Shown one piece after another: positions 1,883 through 32,112 of a stretch of DNA of 64,000 nt. Below the pieces are notes generated by a model. The model did no database searches, was not told the DNA's origin, and worked only from the letters and a program-made list of their open reading frames with translations. Numbering within the stretch: the stretch's first letter is position 1; every line of letters begins with the position of its first letter. Both the position numbers and the translations under genes were made by a program. Source of the stretch: Campylobacter curvus (GTDB lineage Bacteria > Campylobacterota > Campylobacteria > Campylobacterales > Campylobacteraceae); the NCBI RefSeq assembly GCF_013372125.1, contig NZ_CP053826.1, forward strand, positions 1,426,001 through 1,490,000, read 5' to 3'.

Positions 1883-2000
1883 AGCACGAACGATCGTATA
1901 GCCGAGCTAAGAAAGATAGAAGCGCAGCTTAAAAATCGATGATTTGCGGCTAAATTTAGCTTTTTAGCAAACAAAAGCGCCTAAGGGAAATCAAAATTTG

Positions 2001-2228
2001 ACCCCGTTTTAAAAAAAGTGTAGATATTTAAAAATTTTATGACGCCCTGGCGTAGTCAAATCTTAATGCGTTCGCAACGCTATGCTTACAGGAAGAACAC
2101 GGGCAGTGTTTTGAATAAGACGAAGTCGAAGCGTCCCCTTGGGCTACGAGTGGAACGAAGTAGAAAACTTCGCTCGAGGTATGGATGCGGTAGCTGACCG
2201 CCAAAATACGACAAGGACAGCTTTTATA
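2001..2228. repeat. Dispersed repeat family, copy A (degenerate)
   Basis: This gap between htpX and the next gene has no supported coding frame. It contains words shared with other gaps in the window: GTTTTAAAAAAAGTGTAGA (compare the ends of copies C, D and E), GGCGTAGTCAAATCTTA (compare copy E) and GCGGTAGCTGACCGC (compare copies B, D and E). It looks like a decayed member of the MITE-like family described under findings. Boundaries are approximate. Confidence 0.55.
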
Positions 2229-2240
2229 GTGGATAAAATT

Positions 2241-2642
2241 TCATTTTTGATTTAGACAATCAAGCCTCGTGATCTCATACTCAAACAAAAGCTTGCCGTT
2301 CTCATCGTAAAAAAGCTGCTGCAACGCGATATTTGCATCAAGCAAAGCAAGCACCTCTTTATCTTTGCAGGCCTCGCGCAGGTTTAAATTTTTAGTCTCC
2401 TGCGCATATTTTTTCAGTTCGTTTTCGTTAAATTTCGTGACCCAAGTCTTTTTCGTATCATTTACCCCGTATCTGTAGATCAAAGTATCAGAAACGTTTA
2501 AAATATCGTTTAACACGAGGTTTGAGTTGCATCTATGAGGTAAAGCTTTCTTATAAAATTTCGCGTATCTTTCCGCTGCCTGCTCGGCGCTTGAGGCAAA
2601 TGAAATTTCACACAAAATTAGCAAGAAAATGGCTATTCGCAA
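2241..2642 (-). CDS. Secreted hypothetical protein, paralogue of the upstream neighbour
   Basis: A 133-residue protein with a cleavable-looking signal peptide (MRIAIFLLILCEISFASS), so probably periplasmic. After the signal it shares a pattern with the gene just upstream (2633-3064): a helix ending in LPHR, a Y..NDT motif in the middle, a central cysteine, and a C-terminal D-x-C close to the end. The two genes overlap by 10 bases. I see no known domain; the paired cysteines could form a disulfide. The role is unknown. Confidence 0.6.
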   Translation of the reverse strand: MRIAIFLLILCEISFASSAEQAAERYAKFYKKALPHRCNSNLVLNDILNVSDTLIYRYGVNDTKKTWVTKFNENELKKYAQETKNLNLREACKDKEVLALLDANIALQQLFYDENGKLLFEYEITRLDCLNQK

Positions 2643-3064
2643 CTTCTTTTGTCCATTTTGATATCAAAAAAATGCCTACCATCAAGCGCGTATCGACCCT
2701 TTAGCGTTATGCCGCGATTTAGCACCGCGTGAGATATCGCCGTAGCACATAAAGCGGCCTTGCCATTTTCGTAAAATTCTTTTTTCAAGGATCTGATCTC
2801 GTTTGCGCTATATCGCGAAATTTTTCTATTTTCGGTATCGTTTAGCGCGAAATTTGCCTCAATATCAAGCCCCTTGTAGCTAAGCGACTGCAAAGTCACC
2901 ATCTCATCAACTCTATGAGGCAGGTTTTCCTTTGCTAACTGCGCGATAAAGGGCGGTATTTGCTCGGTTTTTAGGCTTGCTAGTATCTGCTCGTAAAATT
3001 TTATCTCGTTCTCGTCTATGCCAAAGGCGAAGCACGCCAAAAATGCCAGAATGATCTTTCTCAT
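2633..3064 (-). CDS. Secreted hypothetical protein, first of a paralogous pair
   Basis: A 143-residue protein with a short signal peptide (MRKIILAFLACFAFG). The mature part is helical at first (FYEQILASLKTEQIPPFIAQLA), then LPHR, a strand-rich middle containing ALNDTENRK, a central cysteine (KAALCATA) and a final KMDKRSCE. The same order of landmarks is seen in the downstream gene, so the two look like a tandem duplication that has diverged strongly. A TAGAAT -10-like hexamer lies at 3086-3091 on the minus strand. The fold resembles small periplasmic lipoprotein-like proteins, but no family is recognised. Confidence 0.6.
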   Translation of the reverse strand: MRKIILAFLACFAFGIDENEIKFYEQILASLKTEQIPPFIAQLAKENLPHRVDEMVTLQSLSYKGLDIEANFALNDTENRKISRYSANEIRSLKKEFYENGKAALCATAISHAVLNRGITLKGRYALDGRHFFDIKMDKRSCE

Positions 3065-3125
3065 CGATTTCCTTTAAATGATGTTATTCTAGCCGTAAAT
3101 TTTAAAAATTTAGTAAAGATCGCAT

Positions 3126-4139
3126 TTAGACGAATTTTCGTTTGATGTTTGGTGAGAGTTTTACCAAAATGTCGTAGTTTATCGTATCAAAATATCGCGC
3201 CCAAACGTTAGCATCGTCAAACACGCAGACCCACTCGCCCGCGTCCTCACAGCTAAAGCTGTCCATCGACATCTTGCCAAGCATCGCCTTGCCGTTTGCA
3301 AGCGGCAGCTCGCCATCTCCAGCGTATCTAAGCAGCCCGTCACCGTATCCTAGATCGTAAGTAGCGATATTTATATCTTTATCGGCGCAAAATTTAGCCC
3401 CGTAGCCTACGCATTGACCCGCTTTTAGCACGCGTTCACTCACCTTTTGCGCCCAGAGGCTAAGCACCGGTTTTAAATTTAGACTCTCATTAAACTGCGC
3501 GTATCCGTGCTGAGCTATGCCGACTCTGACCATATCGTCGTCAAATTCGCTAAATCTCTCGAGCGCGGCGGAGTTGTGCGAGTGAAAGATCGGATGAGGC
3601 ATGGAGAATTTCTCGCAAAGCCTTAAAATTTCGGCCTTTGCCTCTTTGAAATTTTGCTTTTGCACGAAATAATCAGCGTTCATCTCATCGCTCGCGCGAA
3701 AATGCGTATATGCGCCCTCAAGCGCCAAATCCCTCTCTTGTATGAGCCCGAACGCCGCTTCAAGCTCGCTAAATTTTAGCCCGTTTCTGTGCATATTCGT
3801 ATCTATGACTAGATGTATGCGCGTGCCATGCTTTATGCGGCTAAGCGCCTTCATATCGTTTATGGCGTATATAAAATTTTGATCTTCATCGCCGTTTGCG
3901 ATATGCGAAAGGATCAAAATTTTCTCGAAATTTCGCTGTATTTCAAGAGCTTCGCTCTGGCTTTTTACAGCACAAAATTTTATTCCGAATTCGCTCGCCG
4001 CAGCGGCTATCAGCTTTGCGCCGTGTCCGTAGGCGTTGTCTTTTAGCACGAGCATGACGCGCTCTTTGCCGCCGGCTTTGTTTGAAATTTGCGTTAGGTT
4101 GTGGATATAGGCTTTTTTATTTAAACGTATCTCAGACAT
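3126..4139 (-). CDS. alr: Alanine racemase
   Basis: This PLP enzyme interconverts L- and D-alanine for peptidoglycan. The PLP lysine is K33 in VLKDNAYGHG. The downstream GYGAKF carries the catalytic tyrosine, and MLGKMSMDSF is the family's C-terminal-domain motif. At 337 residues it is slightly short compared with the usual 350-380, and the C-terminal domain looks compact. Its start overlaps the end of the 81-residue gene by 8 bases, which in turn overlaps the Pgp2-like gene, so wall-precursor synthesis and wall trimming share a transcript. Confidence 0.93.
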   Translation of the reverse strand: MSEIRLNKKAYIHNLTQISNKAGGKERVMLVLKDNAYGHGAKLIAAAASEFGIKFCAVKSQSEALEIQRNFEKILILSHIANGDEDQNFIYAINDMKALSRIKHGTRIHLVIDTNMHRNGLKFSELEAAFGLIQERDLALEGAYTHFRASDEMNADYFVQKQNFKEAKAEILRLCEKFSMPHPIFHSHNSAALERFSEFDDDMVRVGIAQHGYAQFNESLNLKPVLSLWAQKVSERVLKAGQCVGYGAKFCADKDINIATYDLGYGDGLLRYAGDGELPLANGKAMLGKMSMDSFSCEDAGEWVCVFDDANVWARYFDTINYDILVKLSPNIKRKFV

Positions 4140-4377
4140 TAAAATTCACATCAAATGCGTCATAAACATCGGGCAAGAGCTTTCTTAGGCTGTAATCATA
4201 AGCGTAAAATCTCGCGTAGATCTCTTTTAGATCCGCTTTTTTCACGGCGTCAAAGTCAAAAACATCAGTGCCGTTTTTCTTTGGCACTTGCCTGTCCAGC
4301 TCGGCGAAAAATTCGCCCCTTGCCTTTAAAATCGCCTCTATTTTTTGTTTTACTACATTTTTATCTTGCATTTTCAC
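4132..4377 (-). CDS. 81-residue conserved hypothetical between pgp2 and alr
   Basis: A small, charged, mostly helical protein with no signal peptide, so cytoplasmic. It has a lysine-rich N-terminal helix (NVVKQKIEAILKARGEFFAEL) and an aromatic C-terminal half (IYARFYAYDYSLRKLLPDVYDAF). Its ATG overlaps the stop of the Pgp2-like gene (4374-4377), and its stop overlaps the alr start. This tight coupling implies a real gene. No motif indicates an activity; by position it might modulate or accompany the wall enzymes, which is inference only. Confidence 0.6.
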   Translation of the reverse strand: MKMQDKNVVKQKIEAILKARGEFFAELDRQVPKKNGTDVFDFDAVKKADLKEIYARFYAYDYSLRKLLPDVYDAFDVNFNV

Positions 4378-5339
4378 TCCTCGATAAAAATTTTCATATC
4401 ATTGCCGTAAAGCTTGACATAAAGTGTCTTTTGTCCCGCAAATTTATGCGTAGCGCTCGCATAATCCTCAAAAAAGCTCACGCGAAAAAGCTTATCTTTT
4501 TTGAGATTCGGATAAGGCGTGATGAGAAAATTCGAAAACGCTATGCTCTTGCTCTCTTTTCGTGCAAATATCGATTTTTTCATACTTTTGAAATTTTCTA
4601 AGCTCATACCGTCGTAGCGCGCGAAATCTTTATCGTAAAATTTCAAATAGCTGTCTATATCGTTTTCGATCCATGTCTTTTTCCATGTAAAAAGTCCCGA
4701 TATGATCGCGGCTATTTCACTTGCATTGGTCTGAGGCCTCACGTCCTCGTATATGAGTGCCAGCGTCTTTTTGTGGTCGATAACCTTGTCAAATTTCATC
4801 AAAATGTCATTTTCCATCGCGACGCAGCCCTTGGTTTTTAGCTCGTCCGTCCTTTGTCCGTCAAGCGGATAGCCGTGTATCCAGATGCCTCCGCCGTTTC
4901 TTTTGGCGAGTTTATCGAGTAAATTAGGGTACGAAAGCGAAAAGGCAAGAGGCCCTAGATACGGGTCGCTTGGCGTAAATCTGCGCGTAAGCTGATAGAC
5001 TCCCACAGGCGTTTTTAGATCGCCCTCTAAGAGCTTGTCTCCGCTTTTGCCCACTATCACGCCGGTATCAAAAACGCGTTCCAGTTTGCCGTTATCATAA
5101 GAAAGCACTTCCAGCTTTTTGCCCGTTTTATCGACTACCGCAAGCAGCACCTCGTTGTCGTAGTAGCCGTATTTTACGTCTTTGCCATCAAGTCTTTTAG
5201 CCCAGTATTCTTTACTTAAAACATTTTTCTCTATCGCCTTTATGACGGCGCCAGCACCGCTTTTAAGATAGATATCCTCGTAATTTTGAGCGCTAAGGCT
5301 CGCCGCCAGTATGAAAAAAGGGAAAATTATTTTTTTCAA
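4374..5339 (-). CDS. pgp2: Pgp2-like peptidoglycan LD-carboxypeptidase (YkuD fold)
   Basis: In C. jejuni, Pgp2 trims tetrapeptides to tripeptides in the wall and is needed for helical cell shape. This 321-residue protein starts with a signal peptide (MKKIIFPFFILAASLSA). An LD-transpeptidase/YkuD domain carries the catalytic pattern IWIHGYPLDG ... TKGCVAM with the nucleophilic cysteine. The C-terminal third (from about residue 205) resembles the NTF2-like domain of Pgp2. Length and domain order fit the family. It heads a three-gene overlapping operon with the 81-residue protein and alr. An LD-transpeptidase activity is the alternative, but the NTF2-like tail favours Pgp2. Confidence 0.8.
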   Translation of the reverse strand: MKKIIFPFFILAASLSAQNYEDIYLKSGAGAVIKAIEKNVLSKEYWAKRLDGKDVKYGYYDNEVLLAVVDKTGKKLEVLSYDNGKLERVFDTGVIVGKSGDKLLEGDLKTPVGVYQLTRRFTPSDPYLGPLAFSLSYPNLLDKLAKRNGGGIWIHGYPLDGQRTDELKTKGCVAMENDILMKFDKVIDHKKTLALIYEDVRPQTNASEIAAIISGLFTWKKTWIENDIDSYLKFYDKDFARYDGMSLENFKSMKKSIFARKESKSIAFSNFLITPYPNLKKDKLFRVSFFEDYASATHKFAGQKTLYVKLYGNDMKIFIEE

Positions 5340-5431
5340 TCAAAACCCCGAATTGTGAAATTTAATCCGTAATTATAGCTTAAAATTTATATTTTTCACG
5401 CCTTTAAACATAAATTTAGGTCATTAGATTG

Positions 5432-5437
5432 TATAAT
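5432..5437 (+). promoter_or_regulatory. -10 box upstream of the copper chaperone gene
   Basis: TATAAT preceded by TG, 38 bases before the ATG at 5475, with a good AAAGGA ribosome site between. It lacks an obvious -35, as is usual for Campylobacter sigma-70 promoters. Confidence 0.6.
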
Positions 5438-5474
5438 TTAAAAATTATTATCAAATCTCTTTAAAGGAAAAAAT

Positions 5475-5906
5475 ATGAAAAAATTTGTTTTAGCGGCTAT
5501 TTTCGCGGCTTTTGGCGGTATGAGCCTATTTGCGGGCGACATCAGCATCGACAACATCAGAGCCAGGGACACTAAACCGGGCACTAACAACAGCGCTATC
5601 TTTATGAATATCAAAAATAGCTCAAATGCCGATGTAAAGCTAGTTAGCGTCAAATCAAGCGTCTGCAAAAGCACCGAGATGCACACTCATAAAATGGCAG
5701 ATGGTATGATGGCGATGGTGCAGGTAAAAGATATCGACGTGCCTAAAAATGGCGAAGTGATGCTGGCTCCAGGCGGCCTTCATGTCATGCTCATCGATCT
5801 TAATAAACCTCTAAAAGACGGCGACAAAGTCGATCTTGAGCTAAAATTTAGCAACGGTGAGACGATGAAATTTGACAGCATCAATGTGACTAAAAATTTC
5901 AAATAA
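5475..5906 (+). CDS. Periplasmic copper chaperone, PCu(A)C family
   Basis: PCu(A)C proteins bind Cu(I) in the periplasm and deliver it to the CuA or CuB site of cytochrome c oxidases together with Sco1. This 143-residue protein has a signal peptide (about residues 1-20). The conserved Met/His set is spread over EMHTHKM, GMMAM and GGLHVML, which fits the family's H-M-x-M-H-x-M pattern. Its TAA overlaps the next ATG by one base (5906). The following genes include Sco1/SenC, so the cluster is an oxidase-copper assembly operon. Confidence 0.85.
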   Translation: MKKFVLAAIFAAFGGMSLFAGDISIDNIRARDTKPGTNNSAIFMNIKNSSNADVKLVSVKSSVCKSTEMHTHKMADGMMAMVQVKDIDVPKNGEVMLAPGGLHVMLIDLNKPLKDGDKVDLELKFSNGETMKFDSINVTKNFK

Positions 5907-6373
5907 TGAAAAAGTTCCTAGTCCTTTTTTCGTTTTTATTCATAGCGGCGGGGCTATTTTGGGTTTGTTATAAATTTTTTATGACAAGCAGCGACGATCC
6001 GCCTGAATTTGCAAATTTCAGCACTACGCTAGAGCCTTTGGCGTGCGATATGAACAAAGCCGCGTGCCCTGTGGATTTTAACGGCGAGCAGCTGAAATTC
6101 GAGCTCAATCCAAAGCCGATCTACGCGATGAGGCCGGTCACTTTAAAGATCACTGGCGGCGCAAAGCTAGCCCTTAAAGAGCCCGGTCTTGAAATTTACG
6201 GATTAAACATGGACATGGGCGTCATACGCGCGAAGCTAGAGCAAAAAGGCGACGATCTAGTCGCTCAGGTCGTGCTTAGTGCCTGCGTGGTCGATATCAT
6301 GCGTTATAGATTTGACGTGACGGATAAAGGCTCTAAGATAGGGCTTCACATAGACTTTGACCTTAAAATTTAG
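5906..6373 (+). CDS. Membrane-anchored hypothetical protein in the copper/Sco operon
   Basis: A 155-residue protein with one N-terminal membrane helix (about residues 3-24) and a periplasmic domain with an extended, strand-rich look. Three cysteines are visible in the periplasmic part (ACDMNKAACPVDF and LSACVVDI). The phrase LEIYGLNMDMGVIRAKLEQ, with a Met-rich stretch, would suit metal contact. Its place between a PCu(A)C chaperone and Sco1 recalls the C. jejuni Cj0909-Cj0911 arrangement (from memory). Function unknown; a role in copper handling or oxidase maturation is inferred from context. Confidence 0.65.
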   Translation: MKKFLVLFSFLFIAAGLFWVCYKFFMTSSDDPPEFANFSTTLEPLACDMNKAACPVDFNGEQLKFELNPKPIYAMRPVTLKITGGAKLALKEPGLEIYGLNMDMGVIRAKLEQKGDDLVAQVVLSACVVDIMRYRFDVTDKGSKIGLHIDFDLKI

Positions 6374-6383
6374 GAGGCAGCGG

Positions 6384-6926
6384 ATGAAAAGGGTGTTTGG
6401 ATTTTTGGTATTTTTGCTCATTTGCGGTGGGGCTTTGTTTTTGCTCATTAAGCCAAACAAATACGACTTCACCGCCGACTCCGCAAACGGTCAGGTGACT
6501 CTTAAAAATTTTGACGGCAAATACAAAGCCATATATTTTGGCTTTCTCTTTTGTCCTGACGTTTGTCCGACGACGCTCTCGCTTTTGGGCGAGCAGCTAG
6601 AAGCGCTAAAACGCGATGACTTCGAGCTTATCTTCGTCACTCTCGATCCAGAGCGCGACACTCCGGAAAATTTGACCTTGATGGCGCAAAATTTTTACAA
6701 AAACTCGATCGGCCTCAAGATGAAAAATTTAGCCCAAGTCACGAAACATTATGGGGTGAAATTTAAAAAAGTCCAGCTCAAAGACTCCGCGCTAGACTAC
6801 TCTATCGCACATAGCTCGTCGATCTATCTGCTCGATAAAGAGGGGAAATTTTTCAGCGAGATTTCAAATCTGACAAAAGACAACATCAAAGAAAACCTAC
6901 AAAATATGATCAAAGAGCGACCTTGA
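6384..6926 (+). CDS. Sco1/SenC copper-dependent thioredoxin-like protein
   Basis: Sco proteins carry copper or reduce the CuA cysteines during cytochrome oxidase assembly. The start is ATG 6384, preceded by AGGAGG; an in-frame extension to 6357 would overlap the previous gene and lacks a ribosome site. The 180-residue product has an N-terminal membrane anchor (about residues 3-22), the CxxxC pair C57/C61 in FCPDVCPTTL, and the conserved distal His, H143 in IAHSSSIYLL. All three copper ligands are therefore present. It is third in the copper chaperone operon. Confidence 0.88.
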   Translation: MKRVFGFLVFLLICGGALFLLIKPNKYDFTADSANGQVTLKNFDGKYKAIYFGFLFCPDVCPTTLSLLGEQLEALKRDDFELIFVTLDPERDTPENLTLMAQNFYKNSIGLKMKNLAQVTKHYGVKFKKVQLKDSALDYSIAHSSSIYLLDKEGKFFSEISNLTKDNIKENLQNMIKERP

Positions 6927-6964
6927 GCCTACTTTAAGCGTCGCGAGATCAAAAAAGGATAATC

Positions 6965-7357
6965 ATGAACAAAATTTCAAAATTTACGCTATGCCTCGTG
7001 CTTTGCGTAAGCGCAGCATTTGCCAAAATAGAAACTCTCGAGGCCTCTCCTCAAAATGTAGAGAAATTCGAACAGATCGTCGACGTGAGGACTCCTAGCG
7101 AATGGCAAGAAACCGGCGTCATCAAAGGCGCGAAGCTAGTTACGCTAGTTAATGACAAAGGCAAATTTCTAGCCAAGCTAAAAGACTCGGGCGTTGATCT
7201 TAGTAAACCGGTAGCTTTTATCTGCAGGAGCGGACGCAGAAGCCTAGCTGCAGCAAACCTCGCAGATAGCGCGGATGCCAATATAACAAACCTGGACGGC
7301 GGCATGAGCGGGCTCATCTCAAAAGGCTACAAGACCGAGCCTTACAGCGGTAAATAA
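6965..7357 (+). CDS. Periplasmic rhodanese-like protein
   Basis: A single-domain rhodanese of 130 residues with a signal peptide (MNKISKFTLCLVLCVSAAFA). The entry motif VDVRTPSEW and the active loop CRSGRRS, with nucleophile C87, are intact. Rhodaneses move sulfane sulfur. A periplasmic one next to copper/oxidase genes, in a genome that also has a polysulfide-type reductase, could serve sulfur carriage or thiol repair; that is inference. It sits 38 bases after the Sco gene and may share the transcript. Confidence 0.85.
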   Translation: MNKISKFTLCLVLCVSAAFAKIETLEASPQNVEKFEQIVDVRTPSEWQETGVIKGAKLVTLVNDKGKFLAKLKDSGVDLSKPVAFICRSGRRSLAAANLADSADANITNLDGGMSGLISKGYKTEPYSGK

Positions 7358-7400
7358 ACGGGTTTTATTTACGCTAAAAGCTGTATCATTTTAAAAAAAA

Positions 7401-7625
7401 TTGGCTCTGTTATAAAATTGACACTTGCTTCGCAAACCCTGTTCGCTCCGCAAAGCGCCGAACATGTAGCACGATTTACGCGCTCAGCTACCGCTTCCCT
7501 GTCCTCGTAGCGAAGTCTCGTTACGAGTGCGTAGCACGAAGTAAAAATCGGCGGCGATAGCGTCGCTTCACAAGGTTTGACTTCGCTTTGAAAGCTAAAA
7601 GTCAATGAAATATTTTAACAGATCC
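7401..7625. repeat. Dispersed repeat family, copy B
   Basis: A 225-bp non-coding block between the rhodanese and nitroreductase genes. It begins TTGGCTCTGTTATAA and ends TTTTAACAGATCC, so the ends are imperfect inverted repeats. Bases 7484-7575 match the reverse complement of 26494-26588 exactly apart from one extra CGG in the latter. The core word CAGCTACCGCTTCCCTGTC is the reverse complement of words in copies D and E. Short hairpins (CTCGTA ... TACGAG) occur inside. No coding frame is supported. Confidence 0.85.
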
Positions 7626-7649
7626 TAAAAATTTTATAAAGGAGAGACA

Positions 7650-8279
7650 ATGAATTTTTTAGAAGCGATGAAATTTCGCCATGCGTGCAAAATTTTTGAC
7701 GAAAATAAAAAAATAAGCGCGGGCGAATTTGATTTTATCTTGGAGGCGGGCAGATTAAGCCCAAGCTCGACCGGGCTTGAGCAGTGGGACTTCATCATCG
7801 TGCAAAACAAAGAGCTACGCCAAAAGATCCGCGAAATTTCGTGGAATCAAGTGCAAGTGACCTCATGCTCGCACCTGGTCGTGATCGCAGCAAAGATCGC
7901 CGAGGTCAAGCCCGGTAGCAAATACATCAGCGACATCATCGCCAAGCGCACTAACAAAGCACCGGATATAGTGGGCGATAGGACGAAATTTTATCACGAC
8001 TTTTTGACAGGACGCTTTAAAAACGACGACGAGCTCACGTATGAGTGGTCAGCCAAGCAGTGCTACATCGCGGCGGCAAATATGATGACCGCAGCGGCTA
8101 GCCTAGGCATCGATAGCTGCCCGATGGAGGGCTTTGACGAGGAGGCGCTGGATAAGCTTTTGGGGCTTGACACTAAAAAGCAACGCGCCGCGATAATGAT
8201 ACCTTTTGGCTACCGTATCAACCCACAACCGCAAAAATACCGCCGCGACCTAAATGATATTGTGAAGTGGATCTACTAA
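7650..8279 (+). CDS. NAD(P)H nitroreductase, RdxA/NfsB-like
   Basis: An FMN-dependent oxidoreductase of 209 residues in the NfsB/RdxA group, which reduces nitroaromatic compounds and quinones and can activate metronidazole. Family landmarks are the N-terminal FRHACKIFD (FMN phosphate contact), SPSSTGLEQWDF, and the C-terminal IPFGYR. The start ATG follows a strong GGAGAG ribosome site. It converges on the nap operon across a bidirectional hairpin terminator. Confidence 0.82.
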   Translation: MNFLEAMKFRHACKIFDENKKISAGEFDFILEAGRLSPSSTGLEQWDFIIVQNKELRQKIREISWNQVQVTSCSHLVVIAAKIAEVKPGSKYISDIIAKRTNKAPDIVGDRTKFYHDFLTGRFKNDDELTYEWSAKQCYIAAANMMTAAASLGIDSCPMEGFDEEALDKLLGLDTKKQRAAIMIPFGYRINPQPQKYRRDLNDIVKWIY

Positions 8280-8286
8280 ATTAAAA

Positions 8287-8312
8287 CGCCTTGAAATTTC
8301 AAGGCGTTTTTA
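8287..8312. terminator. Bidirectional hairpin between nitroreductase and napD
   Basis: A perfect stem, CGCCTTGAAATTTCAAGGCG (8287-8306), is followed by TTTTT on the plus strand and a T-rich run on the minus strand. It separates two convergent transcripts. Confidence 0.85.
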
Positions 8313-8346
8313 CCATAAACGACTAAAATCTCCGTTTTAAAGATCT

Positions 8347-16182: not shown

Positions 16183-16992
16183 ATGGCAAACGACAAGAAA
16201 AAACTCACGGTAAACGATATAAAAAACAAAAAGATAAAAGGCGAGCCGATAGTCATGATGACCGCCTACGATGCGCTTTTTGCCAAAATTTTCGATGATT
16301 ACGCCGATATCATTTTAGTCGGCGATAGCCTAAATATGAGCTTTCATCTAAAAAAAGAGACGATAAGCGCCACGATGGAAATGATGCTTTATCACACAAA
16401 GGCCGTTTGCGCCGGGGCTAAAAGCTCGTTTATCCTGGCCGATATGCCTTTTGGCAGTTACAGCGACGAAAGGTCGGCTCTAAAAAACGCGATGAAATTT
16501 TTTAAACAAACCGAAGCAGATGCCGTAAAGATCGAAGGTGGGATGAAAAACACAGCTATCATAAAAAGGCTTTGCGAGGAAGGTATAAGCGTGATGGGGC
16601 ACATCGGGCTCATGCCGCAGTTTTCGAAATTTGAGGGTGGGTTTAAGATAAAAGGCCGCGATGAAACCGAGGTAAAGAGGCTGATGGATGAGGCCAAAGC
16701 GATCGAGCAAGCGGGCGCGTTTGCTATCTTGCTTGAAGGCACGATAAACAGCGTCGCAAAGCAGATTTCAGATAGCGTGAGCGTGCCGGTCATCGGCATT
16801 GGCTCTGGCGCGGATGTGGACGGGCAGGTCTTGGTGTGGTCCGATATGCTCGGGTTTTTTGAGGATTTTAAGCCAAAATTTGCCAAAAGATACCTAAACG
16901 GCGCCGAGCTCGTCAGACAAAGTGTGCAAACATACGCAAACGAGGTCAAAAATAGAATTTTCCCAAGCGAGGAATTTTCATATAAAGGCTGA
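16183..16992 (+). CDS. panB: 3-methyl-2-oxobutanoate hydroxymethyltransferase
   Basis: PanB makes ketopantoate from alpha-ketoisovalerate and methylene-tetrahydrofolate in pantothenate synthesis. The TIM-barrel landmarks are all present: MMTAYDALFAKIFDD, ILVGDSLNM (metal-site Asp), DMPFGSY, VKIEGG, GHIGLMPQ and the catalytic-Glu segment AILLEG, then VIGIGSG. The 269-residue length is normal. The start follows a GAGG ribosome site. No panC or panD is adjacent. Confidence 0.95.
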   Translation: MANDKKKLTVNDIKNKKIKGEPIVMMTAYDALFAKIFDDYADIILVGDSLNMSFHLKKETISATMEMMLYHTKAVCAGAKSSFILADMPFGSYSDERSALKNAMKFFKQTEADAVKIEGGMKNTAIIKRLCEEGISVMGHIGLMPQFSKFEGGFKIKGRDETEVKRLMDEAKAIEQAGAFAILLEGTINSVAKQISDSVSVPVIGIGSGADVDGQVLVWSDMLGFFEDFKPKFAKRYLNGAELVRQSVQTYANEVKNRIFPSEEFSYKG

Positions 16993-17099
16993 CCTTGCGT
17001 GAATTTAGATAAATTTTGCAAGGCAAAGGCGCGTGTAGAGCTTGGAAACTGGCGAAATTTAAGATATGGCTTTAAATTTAGCCCTTTTAGTTTAAAATA

Positions 17100-17248
17100 A
17101 GGCTCTATTTTTAAAAGTGTTGATGTGTCAAACGAGCGCTTCGCGTCTGCTTTAGAGTCCAAGGGGACGCTTGTGAACGTCGCAAGCGCTAATGAAGTGA
17201 AAAATTAGGGCTTGCTGAGGCTTTAAAATACTTTGCCAAAATAGAGCG
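17100..17248. repeat. Dispersed repeat family, short copy C
   Basis: A block of about 149 bp between panB and ruvB. It starts GGCTCTATTTTTAAAAGTGTTGA, nearly identical to the reverse complement of the right end of copy D, and closes with AAAATAGAGCG, the inverted form of its own start. Inside is another GC-rich stretch (CGCTTCGCGTC ... GACGCTTGTGAACGTC). No coding frame is supported in the gap 16993-17282. Confidence 0.7.
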
Positions 17249-19335: not shown

Positions 19336-19357
19336 AATTTCAAATTTAGGATGCAAA

Positions 19358-22431: not shown

Positions 22432-22434
22432 GTT

Positions 22435-23968: not shown

Positions 23969-23979
23969 TTTTCTCCCCT

Positions 23980-26265: not shown

Positions 26266-26420
26266 CTCTCCCTCCTTGATATTTTATGGCATTTTATTAT
26301 CTTTGCGTAAAAATAAGGTAAAAATTTGCTTAAATATAAAGTTTAATTTTTATATTTTATATTTTGAGATAAAGGCTATCAAAAAGTAGGATTTTTAATG
26401 AAATTTTGGGTTTTAAAATT
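26266..26420. other. Leader/promoter region of the psr operon
   Basis: About 150 bases of A/T-rich DNA between the psrA start and repeat copy D. GGAGGGAGAG precedes the ATG. The promoter must lie here or inside the repeat. TATATTTTATATTTTGAG and ATATAAAG stretches could supply a -10, but none is decisive. Confidence 0.4.
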
Positions 26421-26867
26421 TTGGCTCTGTTACAATATTTCATTGATTTTCAGATTTCAAAGCAGGAGAATGCGAACAGCATTCGAGTAAAAGCCTTGTG
26501 AAGCGACGCTATCGCCGCCGCCGATTTTTACTTCGTGCTACGCACTCGTAACGAGACTTCGCTACGAGGACAGGGAAGCGGTAGCTGACCGCGGTCTGCT
26601 TGCAGTTGCGAGTGCAACGAAGCGTCTTGAAAAGCTGCAAGCAACGCGAAGCAGAAAAAATCGTGCTATATGTTCGGCGTCTTGCGGAGAGAGTATGGTT
26701 TTTGCTTCACTTCGTTCGCAACTGCAAAGCAGAAGTGAAGCAAGTGTCAATAATTTATTAAAATTTTACTACGCCCTAGCAAGCTAAATAGAATTCGGCG
26801 ACATTTCGCTTCGCTTGTTCGTAGCTGTAAGTGAGAAATTTATCAACACTTTTTAAAATAGAGCCAA
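26421..26867. repeat. Dispersed repeat family, longest copy D (447 bp)
   Basis: The block starts TTGGCTCTGTTACAATATTT and ends TTTTAAAATAGAGCCAA, so the two ends are inverted copies of each other. Bases 26494-26588 equal the reverse complement of copy B (7484-7575) apart from one CGG. The segment with GTGCTATATGTTCGGC recurs in copies B and E. Between the shared modules is an extra stretch (about 26593-26662) rich in CTGCAAGC-type words. A hairpin-forming TTGCTTCACTT ... AAGTGAAGCAA occurs near 26702-26743. No supported gene; the 62-codon frame inside is a shadow. Confidence 0.85.
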
Positions 26868-26885
26868 GTAAAATTTAAAGAAAGA

Positions 26886-26906
26886 GACCGAGAAAGCATC
26901 TCGGTC
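26886..26906 (-). terminator. Terminator after dcuA
   Basis: The stem GACCGAGA ... TCTCGGTC with a 5-base loop lies just beyond the dcuA stop, followed on the minus strand by a pyrimidine/T-rich run (TCTTTCTTT). Confidence 0.75.
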
Positions 26907-26913
26907 AAAATTT

Positions 26914-28254
26914 TTATAGAAGTATAGGTGCTACTATAAAGCCTAACGCAACTGAAACTGCGACCATTATAGTGCCCGGTATAAAGAAAGAGTGGTTGAA
27001 TACGAATTTTCCGACTCTTGTCGTTCCTGTGTCATCCATCGCTATCGCACCAAGAGTGGTAGGATATGTAGGAAGGACGAATAGTCCTGAAACAGCTGCA
27101 AATGAAGCGACTAGTATCCAAACTTGACCTGAATTTTCAGGGCTTGTCATACCAAGTGCTAGCGCGACGACAGGCATCATGACTTTTGTAGTAACGGCTT
27201 GTGAATAAAGAAGCGCACTGACAAAGTATAAAACGACAGCCAAAACGAATGGATATTGTTTTACGAATTCAGATGCCACGGCTTTGATCGCATCAACGTG
27301 TCCGCCGACAAACGTGCTGCCTAGCCATGCGATACCAAGCACGCAGATGCACGCGTTCATACCGCTTTGGAAAGTGCTAGTTGAAAGTAGCTTGCCTGTC
27401 TCGACTTTGCAAAGCATAACGATGAATGCACCAATAGTAAGCATGAAGCTAATGATCGCACCATCTCTACCAAGGATGACCGGGTTGATAAGTCCGACAT
27501 TCTTTGAGATAGCCAAAGCGTAGATGACGACGGCTAAAACGCCGATACCAAAGATCGCGACAGAGCGTTTTGCATAAGGTAAAAGCTCCTTTTCCTCATG
27601 CCCCTTGATCTCTTTGACAAGACCTTTTGCAAGTCTTTCTTGATAAATAGGATCTTTTGAAAGGTCCAAATCATAAAACATATTTACTATGAATGCAGTT
27701 ATGAGCATGCCAACGAATGTAGTAGATATGCAGATGAAAAGCAACATAGGATAATTCACACCAAGTGGCTCACATAGACCGCTCATCGCGACAAATGCCG
27801 CCGATATCGGGCTAGCAGTGATCGCTACCTGAGATGAAACGACTGAAAGCGCAAGTGGAGCGGAAGGTTTTATATTTTCGCTTTTTGCGACCTCGACGAT
27901 GACAGGTATCATAGAAAACGCAGTGTGTCCGGTACCTGCAAATACTGTCAATAAATAAGTAACAGTCGGTGCTAGATAGTTGATCTGTTTTGGATTTTTA
28001 CGCAAAATTCTCTCTGCCACCTGAACCAAATAATCAAGTCCGCCTGCAACTTGCAAAGCCGTGATAGCCGAGATGACTGATGCGATGATCAAGATGACGT
28101 CCCAAGGCAAATTTGCCGGCTTCATACCAAAGCACAAGGACAAAATAATAACGCCAAGACCACCGGCGTAACCTATACCCATACCTCCTAGCCTGACGCC
28201 TAGGTAAATACCTCCAAACAAGACTATAATCTGTAAAATCAGCATTATATCCAT
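26914..28254 (-). CDS. dcuA: Anaerobic C4-dicarboxylate transporter (DcuA/DcuB family)
   Basis: This 446-residue inner-membrane carrier exchanges fumarate, aspartate or malate for succinate. About ten to twelve helices are visible, with family segments GTGHTAFSMIPVIVEVAK, VAITASPISAAF and LPTYPTTLGAIAMDDTG. It lies downstream of aspA on the same strand. Aspartate imported and deaminated by AspA yields fumarate for FrdCAB, and succinate leaves through this carrier. DcuB is the alternative name; sequence by eye cannot separate the two, but pairing with aspA favours dcuA. Confidence 0.88.
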   Translation of the reverse strand: MDIMLILQIIVLFGGIYLGVRLGGMGIGYAGGLGVIILSLCFGMKPANLPWDVILIIASVISAITALQVAGGLDYLVQVAERILRKNPKQINYLAPTVTYLLTVFAGTGHTAFSMIPVIVEVAKSENIKPSAPLALSVVSSQVAITASPISAAFVAMSGLCEPLGVNYPMLLFICISTTFVGMLITAFIVNMFYDLDLSKDPIYQERLAKGLVKEIKGHEEKELLPYAKRSVAIFGIGVLAVVIYALAISKNVGLINPVILGRDGAIISFMLTIGAFIVMLCKVETGKLLSTSTFQSGMNACICVLGIAWLGSTFVGGHVDAIKAVASEFVKQYPFVLAVVLYFVSALLYSQAVTTKVMMPVVALALGMTSPENSGQVWILVASFAAVSGLFVLPTYPTTLGAIAMDDTGTTRVGKFVFNHSFFIPGTIMVAVSVALGFIVAPILL

Positions 28255-28298
28255 TGGAATCTCCTTTTAAAAAATTATTTTAAAAATTTTAAACTCTC

Positions 28299-28330
28299 AA
28301 GCATTGAAAGCTGGGTGGCTCTCAATGCTT
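28299..28330 (-). terminator. Hairpin between aspA and dcuA
   Basis: AAGCATTGA (28299-28307) pairs with TCAATGCTT (28322-28330) around a 14-base loop, in the 143-base gap between aspA and dcuA. A weak T-containing stretch follows on the minus strand. It may partly terminate or process the aspA-dcuA transcript. Confidence 0.55.
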
Positions 28331-28397
28331 TTATGATTAGGATTTTATTACAATCAGTATAAAACTTAAATTAAATCCTTAAATTTTATAACTAATT

Positions 28398-29813
28398 TTA
28401 TTTACCTATGTCGTCTTTACTCATGCTAGGATTTAGCATATTTTTTGGCTCTAAAATTTTATCTATCTGAGCCTTTGACAAATAGCCTCTCTCAAGGCAG
28501 ATGTCACCTACGGCTTTGCCTGTTTGAAGTGCCTCTTTAGCGATGCTTGCTGATTTCTCGTATCCGATATGCGGGTTGAATGCTGTGACGATACCGACTG
28601 AGCCAAGGACTGATTTTAGGCAAGCCTCAGGATTTGCAGTCAGTTTCTTGATGGCTTTTTCAGCTAGCGTTTTCATTGCGTTTTCAAGTATGCAAATAGA
28701 GTTGAATAGTCCATAAGCGATACCAGGTTCGAATGCGTTTAGCTCAAATTCGCCGCGCTCGCTGCAAAGCATGATAGTCACGTCGTTGCCGATGACCTCA
28801 TAGCAAGCCTCGCCTACGACCTCTGCGATGACAGGGTTTACTTTACCAGGCATGATAGAGCTACCAGGTTGCATTTGAGGTAAATTTATCTCGCCAAGTC
28901 CGCATCTTGGGCCTGAGTTCATCAAACGAAGGTCGTTTGCTATCTTTGAAAGGCGAACGGCGGCTGTTTTTAGTGCACCGCTTACATGGACGAAGTCCGC
29001 AGTATCTTGTGTAGCTGCGATGAAATCATCCGCAGCTTCAAATTTCACTCCGGTTATCTCAGATAGCTTTTTCTCGACTACGAATTTATAGTCAGGATGG
29101 CAGTTGATACCTGTTCCTATCGCAGTCGCGCCCATATTTAGATATCTCATTGACTCGCGTGCAGCAGTGATCTTTTCGATGTCGCTTTTGATGTAAGTGG
29201 CAAAAGCGTTAAATGTGTTGCCAAGTGTCGTAGGAACGGCGTCTTCCAGCTCTGTCCTACCCATTTTGATGACATCTTTCCACTCTTTTGCTTTTACCTC
29301 AAGCTCGCTTTTTAAAAGCTCCATAGCTTTAAGCAAATCGGTAAGTTTAGCGTAAGCTGCTACTTTGATAGAGCTTGGATAAGTGTCATTCGTGCTTTGA
29401 CCTAAATTTGTGTGGTCGTTTGGATGAAGGTATTGATATTCGCCTTTTTTATGCCCCATGCTCTCAAGCGCGACGTTTGTGATGACCTCGTTTGCGTTCA
29501 TATTCGTGCTGGTTCCCGCGCCACCTTGGATCATATCTACGACAAATTGATCTCTAAATTCGCCCGCAATGAGTCTATCGCAAGCTTTAGCTATCGCATC
29601 TGCTTTAGCAGCCTCTAAAACGCCGACTTCTTTGTTTGCAAGAGCCGCAGCTTTTTTGATCTGAGCGAAAGCTTTTATAAAATAAGGATAGTCGCTTAGT
29701 TTTCGTCCGCTCATATGGAAATTCTCAAGTGCTCTGAATGTTTGCACACCGTAATAGACATCATTAGAGATTTCAAGCTCGCCGATGAAGTCGTGTTCTT
29801 TTCTAGTACCCAT
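28398..29813 (-). CDS. aspA: Aspartate ammonia-lyase (aspartase)
   Basis: Aspartase converts L-aspartate to fumarate and ammonia. The 471-residue product carries the superfamily signature GSSIMPGKVNP with the catalytic serine, plus TSTNMNANEVI and HPNDHTNLGQSTND, which bind substrate. The N-terminal RKEHDFIGELEI is typical of AspA rather than class II fumarase FumC. The start has GGAGAA upstream. It supplies fumarate to FrdCAB, encoded about 7.5 kb away in this window. Confidence 0.92.
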   Translation of the reverse strand: MGTRKEHDFIGELEISNDVYYGVQTFRALENFHMSGRKLSDYPYFIKAFAQIKKAAALANKEVGVLEAAKADAIAKACDRLIAGEFRDQFVVDMIQGGAGTSTNMNANEVITNVALESMGHKKGEYQYLHPNDHTNLGQSTNDTYPSSIKVAAYAKLTDLLKAMELLKSELEVKAKEWKDVIKMGRTELEDAVPTTLGNTFNAFATYIKSDIEKITAARESMRYLNMGATAIGTGINCHPDYKFVVEKKLSEITGVKFEAADDFIAATQDTADFVHVSGALKTAAVRLSKIANDLRLMNSGPRCGLGEINLPQMQPGSSIMPGKVNPVIAEVVGEACYEVIGNDVTIMLCSERGEFELNAFEPGIAYGLFNSICILENAMKTLAEKAIKKLTANPEACLKSVLGSVGIVTAFNPHIGYEKSASIAKEALQTGKAVGDICLERGYLSKAQIDKILEPKNMLNPSMSKDDIGK

Positions 29814-29846
29814 AATGGTTCTCCTTTATAAGAAATTGTTATCGGA

Positions 29847-29852
29847 ATTATA
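29847..29852 (-). promoter_or_regulatory. -10 box upstream of aspA
   Basis: TATAAT on the minus strand, 33 bases before the aspA ATG, preceded by TTTA and without a clear -35. Confidence 0.6.
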
Positions 29853-30182
29853 AACTATTTTTTAATTTCAAAGATTAATTTTTAATTTGTGGTTTAAGTT
29901 TTTCAGGTAAGGCTTGTTTAGCAATGTTTTTAGAGACAATTAATAATATAATTTAAGCTATATTTTATATTATTGGTCGAAAAAATTATTATAGATATAA
30001 AATAGTAACGTTTTTATTACTAAAAAGTCACACTAATCTTGTGATTTTCATATTTTTTTTAAGTTTCACATCTAAATTTTAAAGAGTATTAATACAAAAT
30101 AAACTAAATTTTAGCACTCATAAATAGCAAATGATAAAATTCTGATACAAAGGTGATACTTTTATGAGATTTTATAGCAGAA
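29853..30182. other. AT-rich gap upstream of aspA
   Basis: About 330 bases between the aspA promoter and the ABC-F terminator hold no supported gene. The DNA is very A/T-rich with several TATAAAAT-like words (for example near 29992-30003 and 30131-30137). Regulatory sites for aspA may be here, but none is identified. Confidence 0.45.
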
Positions 30183-30205
30183 AATGCCGTTTTCAAAACG
30201 GCATT
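30183..30205 (-). terminator. Terminator of the ABC-F ATPase gene
   Basis: A perfect stem AATGCCGTTTT C AAAACGGCATT, read on the minus strand and followed by TTCTG, lies 13 bases after the stop codon of the ABC-F gene. Confidence 0.8.
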
Positions 30206-30217
30206 GTAAATGAAAGT

Positions 30218-31807
30218 TTAATCCTCAAGTCCTAAATTCTGACGGTATTCTTCGTATGTGCCTCTAAAATCAACCACTTCGCCATCGCCTTTTAAGTGCA
30301 AAATTCTATTTGCAAAAGCGTCGATCAGCTCTCTATCGTGGCTCACGCATACGACGCTTCCGTTAAAATTATAAAACGCCTCGCCAAGTGCGATGATCGC
30401 TTCAAGGTCTAGGTGGTTGTTTGGCTCATCCATCACGAGTAAATTTGGACGATGCAGCATGAGCTGAGCGAGCCTGACGCGATGCTTCTCGCCACCACTT
30501 AAAGCGCCCACGGCCTTTTCCTGTTCGGCACCGCTAAAGAGCATGCGCCCTAGGCACTTTCTGATCTCGTCGATATCCTTGTTTTTAGCATCTTGCAAGT
30601 ATTCATAAAGCTTTAGATCGCTGGTGATTTTATTTACGGTATCTTGCGCGAAATACCCCAGCTCGATAGTCGCTCCGATATGCACCGAGCCGCCATCTGG
30701 GGCCAGCTCACCGGTTATTAGCTTGCAAAGCGTGCTTTTGCCAACACCGTTATGGCCGATGATGGCGAGCTTATCACCCTTTTCAAGCTTGAAATTTAGC
30801 CCATCAAAGACGACTTTATCGTCAAATTTCTTGCTTAAATTTTTGATCTCGATGAGCTCGTTTCCTATCTCGCGGTTCGTGCGAAAAAGTATGCTAGGAT
30901 CGCGTCTGCTCGATACTGCGATCTCGGCGATATCCAGCTTTTCAAGCTGTTTGGCGCGACTGGTCGCTTGCTTGGCTTTGCTCGCATTTGCCGAAAAGCG
31001 CGCGATAAACCGCTCTAGCTCCTCTTTTTCCTTCAGTTTCTTGTCGCGCTCCATCTCGTGCTGTTTGGTGATGAGGTTCGCCGCCATATACCAGTCGTCG
31101 TAATTACCCGAAAATTCACGGATTTTCTTAAAATCCACATCCAAAATATGCGTGCAGACGCGATTTAAAAAGTGCCTATCGTGGCTGATAACTACAAGCG
31201 TTCCCTCGTGGTGATTGAGCTCGTTTTCCAGCCATGCGATGGCGTCGATGTCGAGGTTGTTCGTCGGCTCGTCCAAAAACAAAATATCAGGCTTTGGAAA
31301 CAGCACTTGCGCCAAAAGGACCTTGACCTTTTCGGAATTTTCAAGCTCGCTCATAGATTTATCAAACTCATTTAGTCCCAGTGAGCTTAAAATTTTCTCG
31401 ATCCTGGTTTCGTATTCGTATGTGGGATCCTCCTCTGCGGTGATCATCTCAAGCTCGCTTAGTCGGTCGTTTATGGCGTCTGTAAATTCAGGGCTCTCAT
31501 AAAGCTTTTCTTTTTCTTTAACTGCGTCGTAAAGGCGCTTGTTGCCATATAGAACGGCATCTTTTAGGCTGAAATTTTCAAACGCGAACTGATCTTGACC
31601 AAGCACACCCACACGAAGACCGTTTTCTATCACGATCTCGCCGCTAGTAGGCTCTATCTCGCCACTTAAAATTTTTAAAAATGTCGATTTCCCGGCGCCG
31701 TTCGCACCGATCAGTCCGTATCTGTTGTGGCGATTTAGCTTTAAATTTACATCTTCAAACAGCAAGCTACTGGCAAATCTCTGTGTCAAACCTCTAACTT
31801 CTAACAT
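30218..31807 (-). CDS. ABC-F family ATPase (ribosome-associated, YbiT-like)
   Basis: A soluble protein of 529 residues with two ATP-binding cassettes and no membrane helices. Walker A motifs are GANGAGKST (near residue 35) and GHNGVGKST (near residue 348). The second signature motif is LSGGEKHRVRLAQLM; the first is degenerate (SMSELENSEKVKVLLAQ). The Walker B motifs are DILFLDEPTNNLD and LLVMDEPNNHLD. A charged linker (EMERDKKLKEKEELERFIARF) joins them. ABC-F proteins bind the ribosomal E site and relieve stalls; length suggests the YbiT subgroup. Note that the first LSGGE-type signature is poorly conserved. Confidence 0.88.
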   Translation of the reverse strand: MLEVRGLTQRFASSLLFEDVNLKLNRHNRYGLIGANGAGKSTFLKILSGEIEPTSGEIVIENGLRVGVLGQDQFAFENFSLKDAVLYGNKRLYDAVKEKEKLYESPEFTDAINDRLSELEMITAEEDPTYEYETRIEKILSSLGLNEFDKSMSELENSEKVKVLLAQVLFPKPDILFLDEPTNNLDIDAIAWLENELNHHEGTLVVISHDRHFLNRVCTHILDVDFKKIREFSGNYDDWYMAANLITKQHEMERDKKLKEKEELERFIARFSANASKAKQATSRAKQLEKLDIAEIAVSSRRDPSILFRTNREIGNELIEIKNLSKKFDDKVVFDGLNFKLEKGDKLAIIGHNGVGKSTLCKLITGELAPDGGSVHIGATIELGYFAQDTVNKITSDLKLYEYLQDAKNKDIDEIRKCLGRMLFSGAEQEKAVGALSGGEKHRVRLAQLMLHRPNLLVMDEPNNHLDLEAIIALGEAFYNFNGSVVCVSHDRELIDAFANRILHLKGDGEVVDFRGTYEEYRQNLGLED

Positions 31808-31920
31808 TATTTTCCTTTAAATTTTAAACGGTAATTTTGCCAAAAATTTTATTAATTTCTAATCTTTTAGCAAAATAATACGCAAAGCCCGCCGTCATTT
31901 AAATTCGGCTTCTTTCTGAT

Positions 31921-32112
31921 AAAGTGTTGATTTTTAAAAAATTTAAATGTTCTAGCGTAGTCAAATCTTATGCAGCGACACTATTGCCGCCGAAATTAAG
32001 GGAAGCGTAAGCTGACCGCTAATTTCGTGCTATATGTTCGGCACTTTGTGGAGCAAGTAAGATTTACGAAGCTTTCATTTAAGGCTATCAGCACTTTTTA
32101 AAACAGAGCCAA
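31921..32112. repeat. Dispersed repeat family, copy E
   Basis: A 192-bp non-coding block between the ABC-F gene and the DUF1287 gene. It begins AAAGTGTTGATTTTTAAAAA and ends CACTTTTTAAAACAGAGCCAA, again inverted ends. It carries GCGTAGTCAAATCTTA (shared with copy A), GGGAAGCGTAAGCTGACCGC and TTCGTGCTATATGTTCGGC (shared with copies B and D) in the same order as D. The flanks (31808-31920 and 32113-32165) show nothing else. Confidence 0.8.

Follow-up and report, generated by a model that had tools for sequence, protein, structure and literature searches.

The window analysed here, a stretch of 64,000 nucleotides from Campylobacter curvus, contains five blocks built from shared repeated sequences, and the question they raise is whether such blocks are mobile elements, structured RNA units, or both. 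As set out below, we hold it highly probable, taking the four parts jointly, that they belong to a MITE family, that an ISCaje5-like transposon moved this family in trans, that its hairpin core is under selection and that palindromes have enlarged its copies.

Block D, used alone as a BLAST query, returned 86 matches in its own genome (E ≤ 0.01), which, together with the copies found across the family, excludes chance and establishes the five blocks at the places where the sequence-only reading had seen them. The reading would have been weakened by an absence of further copies, but many were found. In total, the family occupies at least 91 loci of the 1.97-Mb genome, comprising 81 BLAST loci (87 clusters before merging) and 10 loci detected by the covariance model only; the BLAST loci sum to 19.3 kb, about 1% of the genome. 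Both ends could be paired in 39 of the 87 clusters, delimiting copies of 148 to 443 bp with a mode at 187 bp, while a recognisable end pair is absent in the other 48. The repeats are a MITE family with a 187-bp unit bounded by GGCTCTGTT...AACAGAGCC, inserted at AT-rich sites and nearly always outside ORFs (64 of 65 covariance-model hits). Specifically, the copies are short (less than about 600 bp), carry no transposase gene, have inverted ends and are dispersed in high copy number. The full end reads GGCTCTGTTACAATATTTCATTGATT, and two end types, subfamily I and subfamily II, can be told apart.

Block D had no match among phages or plasmids, nor had one 187-bp copy among plasmids, and the word GTGCTATATGTTCGGCG matched only three unrelated bacteria in the GTDB contig collection, from which the species itself was possibly left out. 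A search of the whole window against Rfam at gathering score gave only tmRNA and tRNA-Asn, both away from the repeats, and as far as the searches reach the repeats matched no known coding or tRNA/rRNA sequence. When one 187-bp copy with its flanks was searched at a lax threshold, the best match was rliB, with 18.2 bits (E 0.12) against a cut-off of 40. No description of the family was found in the accessible parts of the literature on Campylobacter MITEs, IS1595 MITEs, IS1595 cargo and C. curvus repeats; the main text of the review PMC10969869, as far as accessible, has no occurrence of Campylobacter or of IS1595. As a separate observation, the G+C content of sampled stretches of the genome is 45%.

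The five copies in the window, beyond which the BLAST cluster list has none there, differ in their state of preservation. Copy E (31907..32110, plus strand) is a subfamily II MITE with a clear right end, AAAACAGAGCC, and a diverged left end, GGCTTCTTTCTGATAAAGTGTTGATT; by our own reading it starts near 31907 and not at 31921, as had been proposed. Its 117-nt hairpin core (31956..32072, plus strand) gives a covariance-model hit of 129.8 bits (E 8.3e-28), E being one of the sequences used to build the model. Copy B (7403..7625, minus strand) is a 223-bp MITE with ends GGCTCTGTT and AACAGATCC, whose core contains an additional palindromic module, hit by the model at G000:1433427-1433585 (minus strand, 103.9 bits); it lies between the target duplications AAAAAATT (7395..7402) and TAAAAATT (7626-7633), identical at 7 of 8 positions. 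Copy C (17101..17248) is a degenerate or deleted copy of 148 bp, with subfamily II-like ends, a 6/8 target duplication and no core match to E. Copy D (26423..26865, plus strand, 443 bp) is an apparent composite, in which a copy with a subfamily I left end, enlarged by several palindromic modules, extends to about 26765, by our own reading, and is followed by a fragment with a subfamily II right end; its flanks show no target duplication (2/8). Copy A (2000..2228, plus strand) is decayed, consisting of a left arm that resembles subfamily II, with gaccccgttttaaaaaaagtg at 2000 (again our own reading), and a partial core, with no end pair by the rule used and an uncertain right limit. The inverted ends reported earlier are paired in B and C, within corrected limits, and are both present in D though of different subfamilies. 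The earlier statement that no block has a supported gene applies to A, B, D and E, in which there is no ORF of at least 80 aa, while a 234-aa frame starting with TTG (16458-17162, minus strand) enters C.

The flanks of the paired copies record how they arrived. An exact 8-bp target duplication was found in 22 of the 39, against a mean of 0.76 and a maximum of 5 with shuffled partners, and a duplication of at least 7/8 in 27 (shuffled mean 2.4, maximum 9); none of the 39 has an exact 9-bp duplication. These counts refer to the clusters in which each end scores at least 7/9 close to the edge of the cluster, the best end score being chosen regardless of duplication. We read the 12 copies below 7/8 as cases of decay or fusion. 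Comparison of occupied and empty sites led to the same unit: of the 21 relatives in which both flanks of the copy at 1138749-1138935 could be aligned, 20 have an overlap of exactly 8 bp between the two flank matches, as at an empty site carrying the 8-mer once, which was read directly in genome G001. For a copy in the related genome G007, nine relatives were matched, three of them with both flanks together, and all three have the target once. The proposal of non-autonomous mobile elements is thus borne out by duplications, by empty sites and by a matching transposon group.

This group consists of ISCaje5-like IS1595 elements of related genomes, which have matching ends in five of five cases and carry methylase or restriction-modification-type genes. 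Of the 20 positions beyond GGCTCT, their ends share 13-17 with the best MITE end, compared with 8-10 for the other IS1595 group; the null has its 95% point at 12 and its maximum at 17, a value reached once by a random AT-rich 20-mer, the stretches sampled including the MITEs themselves. In all five, the transposase gene starts 81-85 bp inside the MITE-type end, and its product has a zinc ribbon, a weak PF12762 match (positions 1/2-145, 39.9-51.1 bits) and an NF033547 match of 181.6-193.9 bits. Exact 8-bp duplications flank four of the five complete elements; the fifth starts where its contig starts or ends. The named representative lies on a Campylobacter coli plasmid (NZ_CP082875.1): it measures 2899 bp, has the ends GGCTATGTTTTTATTAAGTATTGAAA and GGCTCTGTTTTTATAGTGTATTGATT, an exact ATTAATTT duplication and a site-specific DNA-methyltransferase gene, and its transposase is 64% identical to the G019 transposase used as query, for which ISSag10 is the next named match. 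It is autonomous and cargo-bearing, whereas the MITE has a hairpin core in place of a transposase. In addition, G007 contains both a full 187-bp copy and an ISCaje5-like transposon. Movement of the MITE in trans by an ISCaje5-like IS1595 transposase is therefore strongly supported on sequence grounds. The transposase of this group was not found in the C. curvus genome, so that we infer mobilisation from the ends, and the family looks orphaned here today.

The same features agree with what the accessible parts of PMC12561309 and PMC8101967 describe for the IS1595 family, for example ISApl4 of the IS1016 group, namely 8-bp AT-rich duplications and ends beginning with GG, shared by the partner group along with the DDE_Tnp_IS1595 domain; no MITE of a comparable kind was found there. 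The partner group also resembles tISCpe8 and MTnSag1 (PMC5704250, as far as accessible), in which an IS1595-type transposase is joined to additional genes, with the difference that the cargo of tISCpe8 is lincomycin resistance and that of the ISCaje5-like group DNA methylase and specificity-type genes.

Two other IS1595 candidates were considered as partners. The 746-bp insertion sequence at G000:32710-33455 was rejected because, beyond GGCTC, its ends agree with MITE ends no better than by chance (8 and 10 of 20) and because it lies within a MITE copy, into which it has inserted. A third group (G021, G022, G023 and G062; loci L122-L125), with strong PF12762 matches of 129-134 bits, showed, within 1.5 kb, no pair of ends of the GGCTCTGTT type.

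In the genus-wide covariance-model search the filters were stricter and no more than 76 candidates were scored per genome, so that its zeros may miss weak copies; for this reason the five transposon loci were searched again with the filters off, and the best match to the 117-nt core had only 14.5 bits (E 0.36). Derivation of the MITE interior from an IS1595 transposon did not emerge for the core, the part covered by this comparison, and the arms partly match the transposon ends.

The core is predicted to fold as one long hairpin, with double changes that keep pairing in 17 of 35 pairs. Covariation was measured in 32 copies with cores of 115-122 nt, thus leaving out the E-like copies of other lengths (36997, 61351, 609796, 1300673, 1654494 and 1710395) and copies rich in modules, B and D among them. 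It amounted to 76 cells, counts being inflated by kinship among copies, compared with 22.4 in shuffled alignments, none of 500 shuffles reaching the observed value, and with 2-11 in slid versions. The earlier suggestion of structured-RNA units is upheld as far as covariation beyond chance is concerned, the RNA form being a prediction. The core looks selected, possibly as RNA.

Such double changes could also arise in a functionless quasi-palindrome whose arms undergo template switching or gene conversion with each other, an explanation that we judge possible, though well short of even. The family is rich in palindromes and nested palindromic modules, so a process correcting hairpins may operate, and the arms diverge little more than the core (0.124 and 0.091) in 12 subfamily I copies that have both ends and no modules. 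However, correction between arms should erase mismatches, yet an internal tandem G.A mismatch stays, with A50, G63 and A64 invariant in the 32 copies and the fourth residue nearly so. The unpaired stretch TA-A-GTTC (columns 80-88) is likewise invariant at six of nine positions, next to pairs that covary. Moreover, some copies keep a core about 0.9 identical despite arms near noise, as copy 1497885 (0.66/0.92/0.62 to the reference, with arm null 95% points of 0.66 and 0.69), by a measure that is rough, given that copy 1899102, with both ends and an exact duplication, is flagged as well. Copy 32575, whose left arm is interrupted by an insertion sequence, was left out of the final comparison of arms and core.

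Since covariation alone fits RNA and single-stranded DNA alike, and tandem G.A pairs can form in DNA too, the hairpin might work as single-stranded DNA, say by forming a cruciform or as a signal on the lagging strand. We regard this as unlikely. All 30 distinct cores fold as RNA at lower predicted energy on the E strand (-42.9 on average, as opposed to -34.4), and between tandem genes this strand is the sense strand in 30 of 43 cases (p 0.014, all 65 model hits counted; 30 vs 13, compared with 26 vs 11 in an earlier subset of 54 hits). In addition, the five full transposons have no core, which is therefore dispensable for their own transposition. The structure predicted for the E strand has 46 G.U and 9 A.C cells, a ratio that becomes 15 to 5 on pairs common to the folds of both strands and 46 to 38 on their union, and this asymmetry is confounded. 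Selection on the shape of the core, most likely at the RNA level and in the 3' untranslated region of the upstream gene, is supported but not proved. Terminator scans of one copy and of D found nothing inside the element.

Promoter-like hexamers at the MITE ends could instead make the element a mobile promoter driving adjacent genes, as promoters are carried by other MITEs (PMC10969869, accessible part). One copy has 5 promoter-like sites against 0.9 in shuffles, two of which overlap the ends on the E strand (L101, 1509-1481, TTGCGA-17-TATTAT; 1673-1645, TTATCA-17-TACAAT). We consider this role quite improbable: the sites match at 9/12 only, in an AT-rich context and in the one copy scored, copy D has 3 sites against 0.7 in shuffles, and the covarying core would be left unexplained.

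As for the mover, ISL3 and IS6 also generate 8-bp duplications and have similar tips, those of IS6 being GGCTCTGTTGCAAA-like. Mobilisation by either is very improbable, since the extended ends are present in five of five ISCaje5-like IS1595 elements. The ISL3 domain (PF01610) has no match in this genome and matches in 7 of 48 genomes of the genus. Spread by duplication without a DDE transposase, as REP/ERIC-type palindromes or a structured-RNA gene family, would suit intergenic, palindromic and abundant repeats, but is refuted for copies with duplications and hardly credible overall given the exact duplications, whose length peaks sharply at 8 bp, and the precise empty sites.

In sum, a 187-bp unit has inserted into AT-rich sites, generating 8-bp target duplications, and we propose that an ISCaje5-like IS1595 transposase acted in trans on its ends; that the core may be read within the 3' untranslated region of the upstream gene, as a candidate processing or stability element; and that GC-rich palindromes would later have been added to many copies. 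A bolder version, which we put forward only tentatively, is that of a mobile regulatory RNA, in which a structured 117-nt RNA captured the ends of IS1595 transposons with restriction-modification genes, was carried by them to about 90 mostly intergenic sites in one species and became a selected 3'-UTR element, while short GC-rich palindromic units that appear independently mobile are still being inserted in the loops of the core.

With about 1% of the genome delimited as a MITE family and tied to a named transposon group, the family is linked to transposons by which methylase and restriction-modification-type genes are spread in the genus, and the strong covariation in 32 simple copies makes the choice between a selected RNA and a by-product hairpin directly testable. 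The Correia element of Neisseria, in the accessible part of PMC10969869, is likewise a MITE of about 200 bp, intergenic, hairpin-forming and in high copy number, and in some cases RNase III cleaves its transcripts; the Campylobacter MITE differs by its nested modules and by having a distinct core that covaries.

The longer copies, D among them, contain additional short palindromes that are present in other species too. We infer that short GC-rich palindromes entered many copies at a later stage and lengthened them; versions of these modules are also present elsewhere in the genus. A likeness by description exists with Rickettsia palindromic elements and mitochondrial GC clusters, which are short GC-rich palindromes inserted into other sequences; the modules described here have MITEs, insertion sequences and other repeats as their hosts. 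The sequences noticed earlier as shared between B and D are real, with stretches of 78 nt and 30 nt that are 99% and 97% complementary.

All five repeat blocks (A to E) that the sequence-only reading had picked out in the window were found, and they belong to a family dispersed through the whole genome, a single contig of 1.97 Mb (G000, in which the window is G000:C1:1426001-1490000). Used as queries, blocks D, E, A and C gave 86, 46, 21 and 10 own-genome matches, respectively. In the analysed stretches the matches formed 87 clusters (81 once neighbours were merged), with a total of 19.3 kb. A search of this genome and its relatives with a covariance model of the core, the internal 117-nt hairpin, recovered further copies: 65 matches at E<=0.01 in G000, 10 of them at loci without a BLAST match. 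Taken together, the 81 BLAST loci and the 10 covariance-model loci give a MITE family of at least 91 loci, a lower bound, as a limited number of candidates was scored per genome in each search. Across the genus, the core was detected in three of 48 genomes, namely G000 (65 matches), G007 (one) and G011 (one, weak), and at that sensitivity, with one genome per species, no match appeared in the other 45.

Alignment of simple copies defined the units of two subfamilies, told apart by their ends: GGCTCTGTTACAATATTTCATTGAT...core...TCAATGATTTATTATAACAGAGCC for subfamily I and GGCTCTGTTTTAAAAAGTGTTGATT...core...ATCAACACTTTTTAAAACAGAGCC for subfamily II. Both ends are present in 39 of the 87 clusters, with a modal length of 187 bp. 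The flanking 8-bp duplication is exact in 22 of these 39 copies and agrees at seven or more positions in 27, while random re-pairing of left and right flanks among copies (2000 times) gave a mean of 0.76 exact matches (maximum 5) and of 2.4 matches at seven or eight positions (maximum 9). The duplication length is sharp, since none of the 39 copies shows an exact match at 9 bp. Within the window, the target duplication scores 7/8 for copy B (7403-7625), 6/8 for C (17101-17248) and 2/8 for D (26423-26865); the latter appears to combine a subfamily I copy with a fragment bearing a subfamily II end.

The comparison of occupied and empty sites bears directly on the proposal of a non-autonomous mobile element. 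For the copy at 1138749-1138935, 36 same-genus relatives were searched: 22 gave a match to one flank or both, and 21 to both. The left and right matches overlap by precisely the 8 bases of the target in 20 of these 21; the exception is G016, whose right match begins five bases later, leaving an overlap of 3. In the relative G001 the site reads ATAAAAATAAATTTAAGGA without interruption, and in G000 AAATAAAT stands on either side of the element. Similarly, the MITE copy of G007 is exactly 187 bp long (L220:1462-1648; G007:117104-117290) and is flanked twice by AATTTTTA, and in the three relatives with contiguous flanks (G001, G002 and G009) the target occurs once. Because the empty sites hold a single 8-bp target that is duplicated at the copies, insertion of the MITE by transposition is directly demonstrated rather than inferred, and the mobile-element proposal is borne out. 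The G007 element went in where a conserved reading frame ends, and the new stop codon appears to be supplied by the element's own end.

On 32 module-free cores, RNAalifold predicted a single long hairpin of 35 pairs. Among the 30 distinct core rows, standard pairs make up 97.1% of the cells and double changes are kept in 17 pairs, amounting to 76 double-change cells against 22.4 +/- 4.2 after shuffling, a value reached in none of 500 shuffles; sliding the partner columns by 1-3 left 2-11 such cells. In the copy at 1373443, the arms of the inner stem are swapped, from GATTTTC/GAAAATC to GAAAATC/GATTTTC. Inside the hairpin, A50, G63 and A64 of a tandem G.A mismatch are invariant, as are six of the nine positions of an unpaired stretch (columns 80-88), which is difficult to explain by a process that only perfects palindromes.

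Selection is likely, if not proved, to act on this core. Some old copies retain it though their arms, the parts on either side, are near noise level: identities of left arm, core and right arm are 0.66, 0.92 and 0.62 in the copy at 1497885 and 0.66, 0.91 and 0.76 in that at 1107616, where the null for arms has 95% points of 0.66 and 0.69 and maxima of 0.80 and 0.90. This measure is rough, flagging also the copy at 1899102, which has an exact duplication. In 12 module-free, two-ended subfamily I copies the difference in divergence is small (arms 0.124, core 0.091), the arms being more diverged in 46 of 66 copy pairs. Three hints point to an RNA of one strand, that of the core of copy E (31907-32110). 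Folding energy is lower on this strand in all 30 distinct cores. G.U exceeds A.C on the predicted pairs (46 versus 9 cells, 16 versus 7 positions), a count biased by the choice of structure (15 versus 5 when restricted to the pairs shared by the two strands' folds, 46 versus 38 for their union). Finally, 64 of the 65 core matches lie outside simply called ORFs, and between tandem genes the E strand is sense in 30 of 43 (p 0.014), convergent (13) and divergent (8) sites being uninformative on orientation. Promoter-like sites overlap both element ends in the single copy scanned.

IS1595 transposase domains were matched in 23 of the 48 genus genomes. The only match in G000 lies within an insertion sequence of 746 bp that has the ends GGCTCAAGATAAGTTAAG (G000:32710-33455; L130 1423-2168), itself inserted in the MITE copy at 32.6 kb with a AAATCTTA duplication. 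A second IS1595 group, defined by weak PF12762 matches (39.9-51.1 bits, from position 1 or 2 to 145), occurs in G007, G019, G023, G026 and G029; its transposases have about 340 aa and a zinc ribbon (NF033547, 181.6-193.9 bits; NF050000). Complete elements measure 3627 bp in G007 (L214 1493-5119), 5215 bp in G019 (L216, reverse strand), 2999 bp in G023 (L215 1496-4494), 3832 bp in G026 (L218 58-3889) and 5242 bp in G029 (L217 1-5242). In each of the five, a GGCTCTGTT-type end precedes the transposase gene, whose start lies 81-85 bp further in. Exact 8-bp duplications flank four of the elements, and the fifth begins at a contig end. Compared with the best of 53 MITE ends, the ends of this group agree at 13-17 of 20 positions beyond GGCTCT, and the other IS1595 group's ends reach 8-10. 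For AT-rich random 20-mers, which were drawn from stretches that include MITEs themselves, agreement averages 9.6, with a 95% point of 12, and peaks at 17. Mobilisation of the MITE family by these ISCaje5-like IS1595 transposases is most likely. G003 (L180, L181), G016 (L182 1836-2025, read as 190 bp with an 8-bp duplication) and G026 (L183) contain diverged, AT-rich MITE-like elements with the same ends. They seem to be older relatives that lack the conserved core: no core was found in the five transposon loci and these four elements, the best match with filters off reaching 14.5 bits (E 0.36).

Over its length, the G019 transposase shares 63.8% identity with a transposase annotated as ISCaje5 on C. 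coli plasmids. The ISCaje5-like C. coli element spans 2899 bp (L304 2417-5315), has ends GGCTATGTTTTTATTAAG... and GGCTCTGTTTTTATAGTG... and an exact ATTAATTT duplication, and carries, after the transposase, a gene for a site-specific DNA-methyltransferase. Methylase or restriction-modification-type genes are present in all six ISCaje5-like transposons examined (five genomes and the C. coli plasmid), and exact 8-bp duplications in five: the cargo is an Eco57I-type methylase in G023, an HSDR_N plus N6_Mtase fusion in G007 and G019, and N6_Mtase in G029 and G026; G019 and G029 also encode proteins that resemble a specificity subunit at sub-threshold level. The G019 transposase is also 66.9% identical to one on an H. 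pylori plasmid, pY95 (NZ_MK795213.1, L305). This IS1595 transposase has as neighbours other transposase genes and a gene for an AlwI-type restriction endonuclease; by the end rule used, no left MITE-type end was found there.

The MITE class is already known and the partner transposon group has a named member in ISCaje5. What is new is the combination of a strongly covarying cargo hairpin, unusual and probably selected, with expansion in one species and nested palindromes; as far as listings show, literature searches turned up no description of it.

As regards the palindromes, longer MITE copies hold additional short GC-rich ones. Three such modules are nearly confined to MITE loci in the G000 stretches (17 of 20, 14 of 14 and 25 of 26 matches), these loci making up about 9% of stretches that were centred on them. 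Two of these modules are found in other palindromic contexts as well, in G005, G020, G029, G030 and G032; sampling 400 kb of G005 gave six matches for one, against none in shuffled sequence, and none for the other. A second palindromic repeat with GCGGCTTGTCTTTTTCCTTTATACTTCGC-type ends, present in G005, G020, G029 and G030 (L032, L033, L038, L039 and L040; L280 and L293 in the G005 sample), contains short modules that the MITEs have as well. The GC-rich palindromes look like independently inserted units. Copies of a 746-bp IS1595 insertion sequence in G005 (L184-L199) vary in internal GC-rich inserts, which are 13-73 bp long and in several cases palindromic, and some copies have an identical set.
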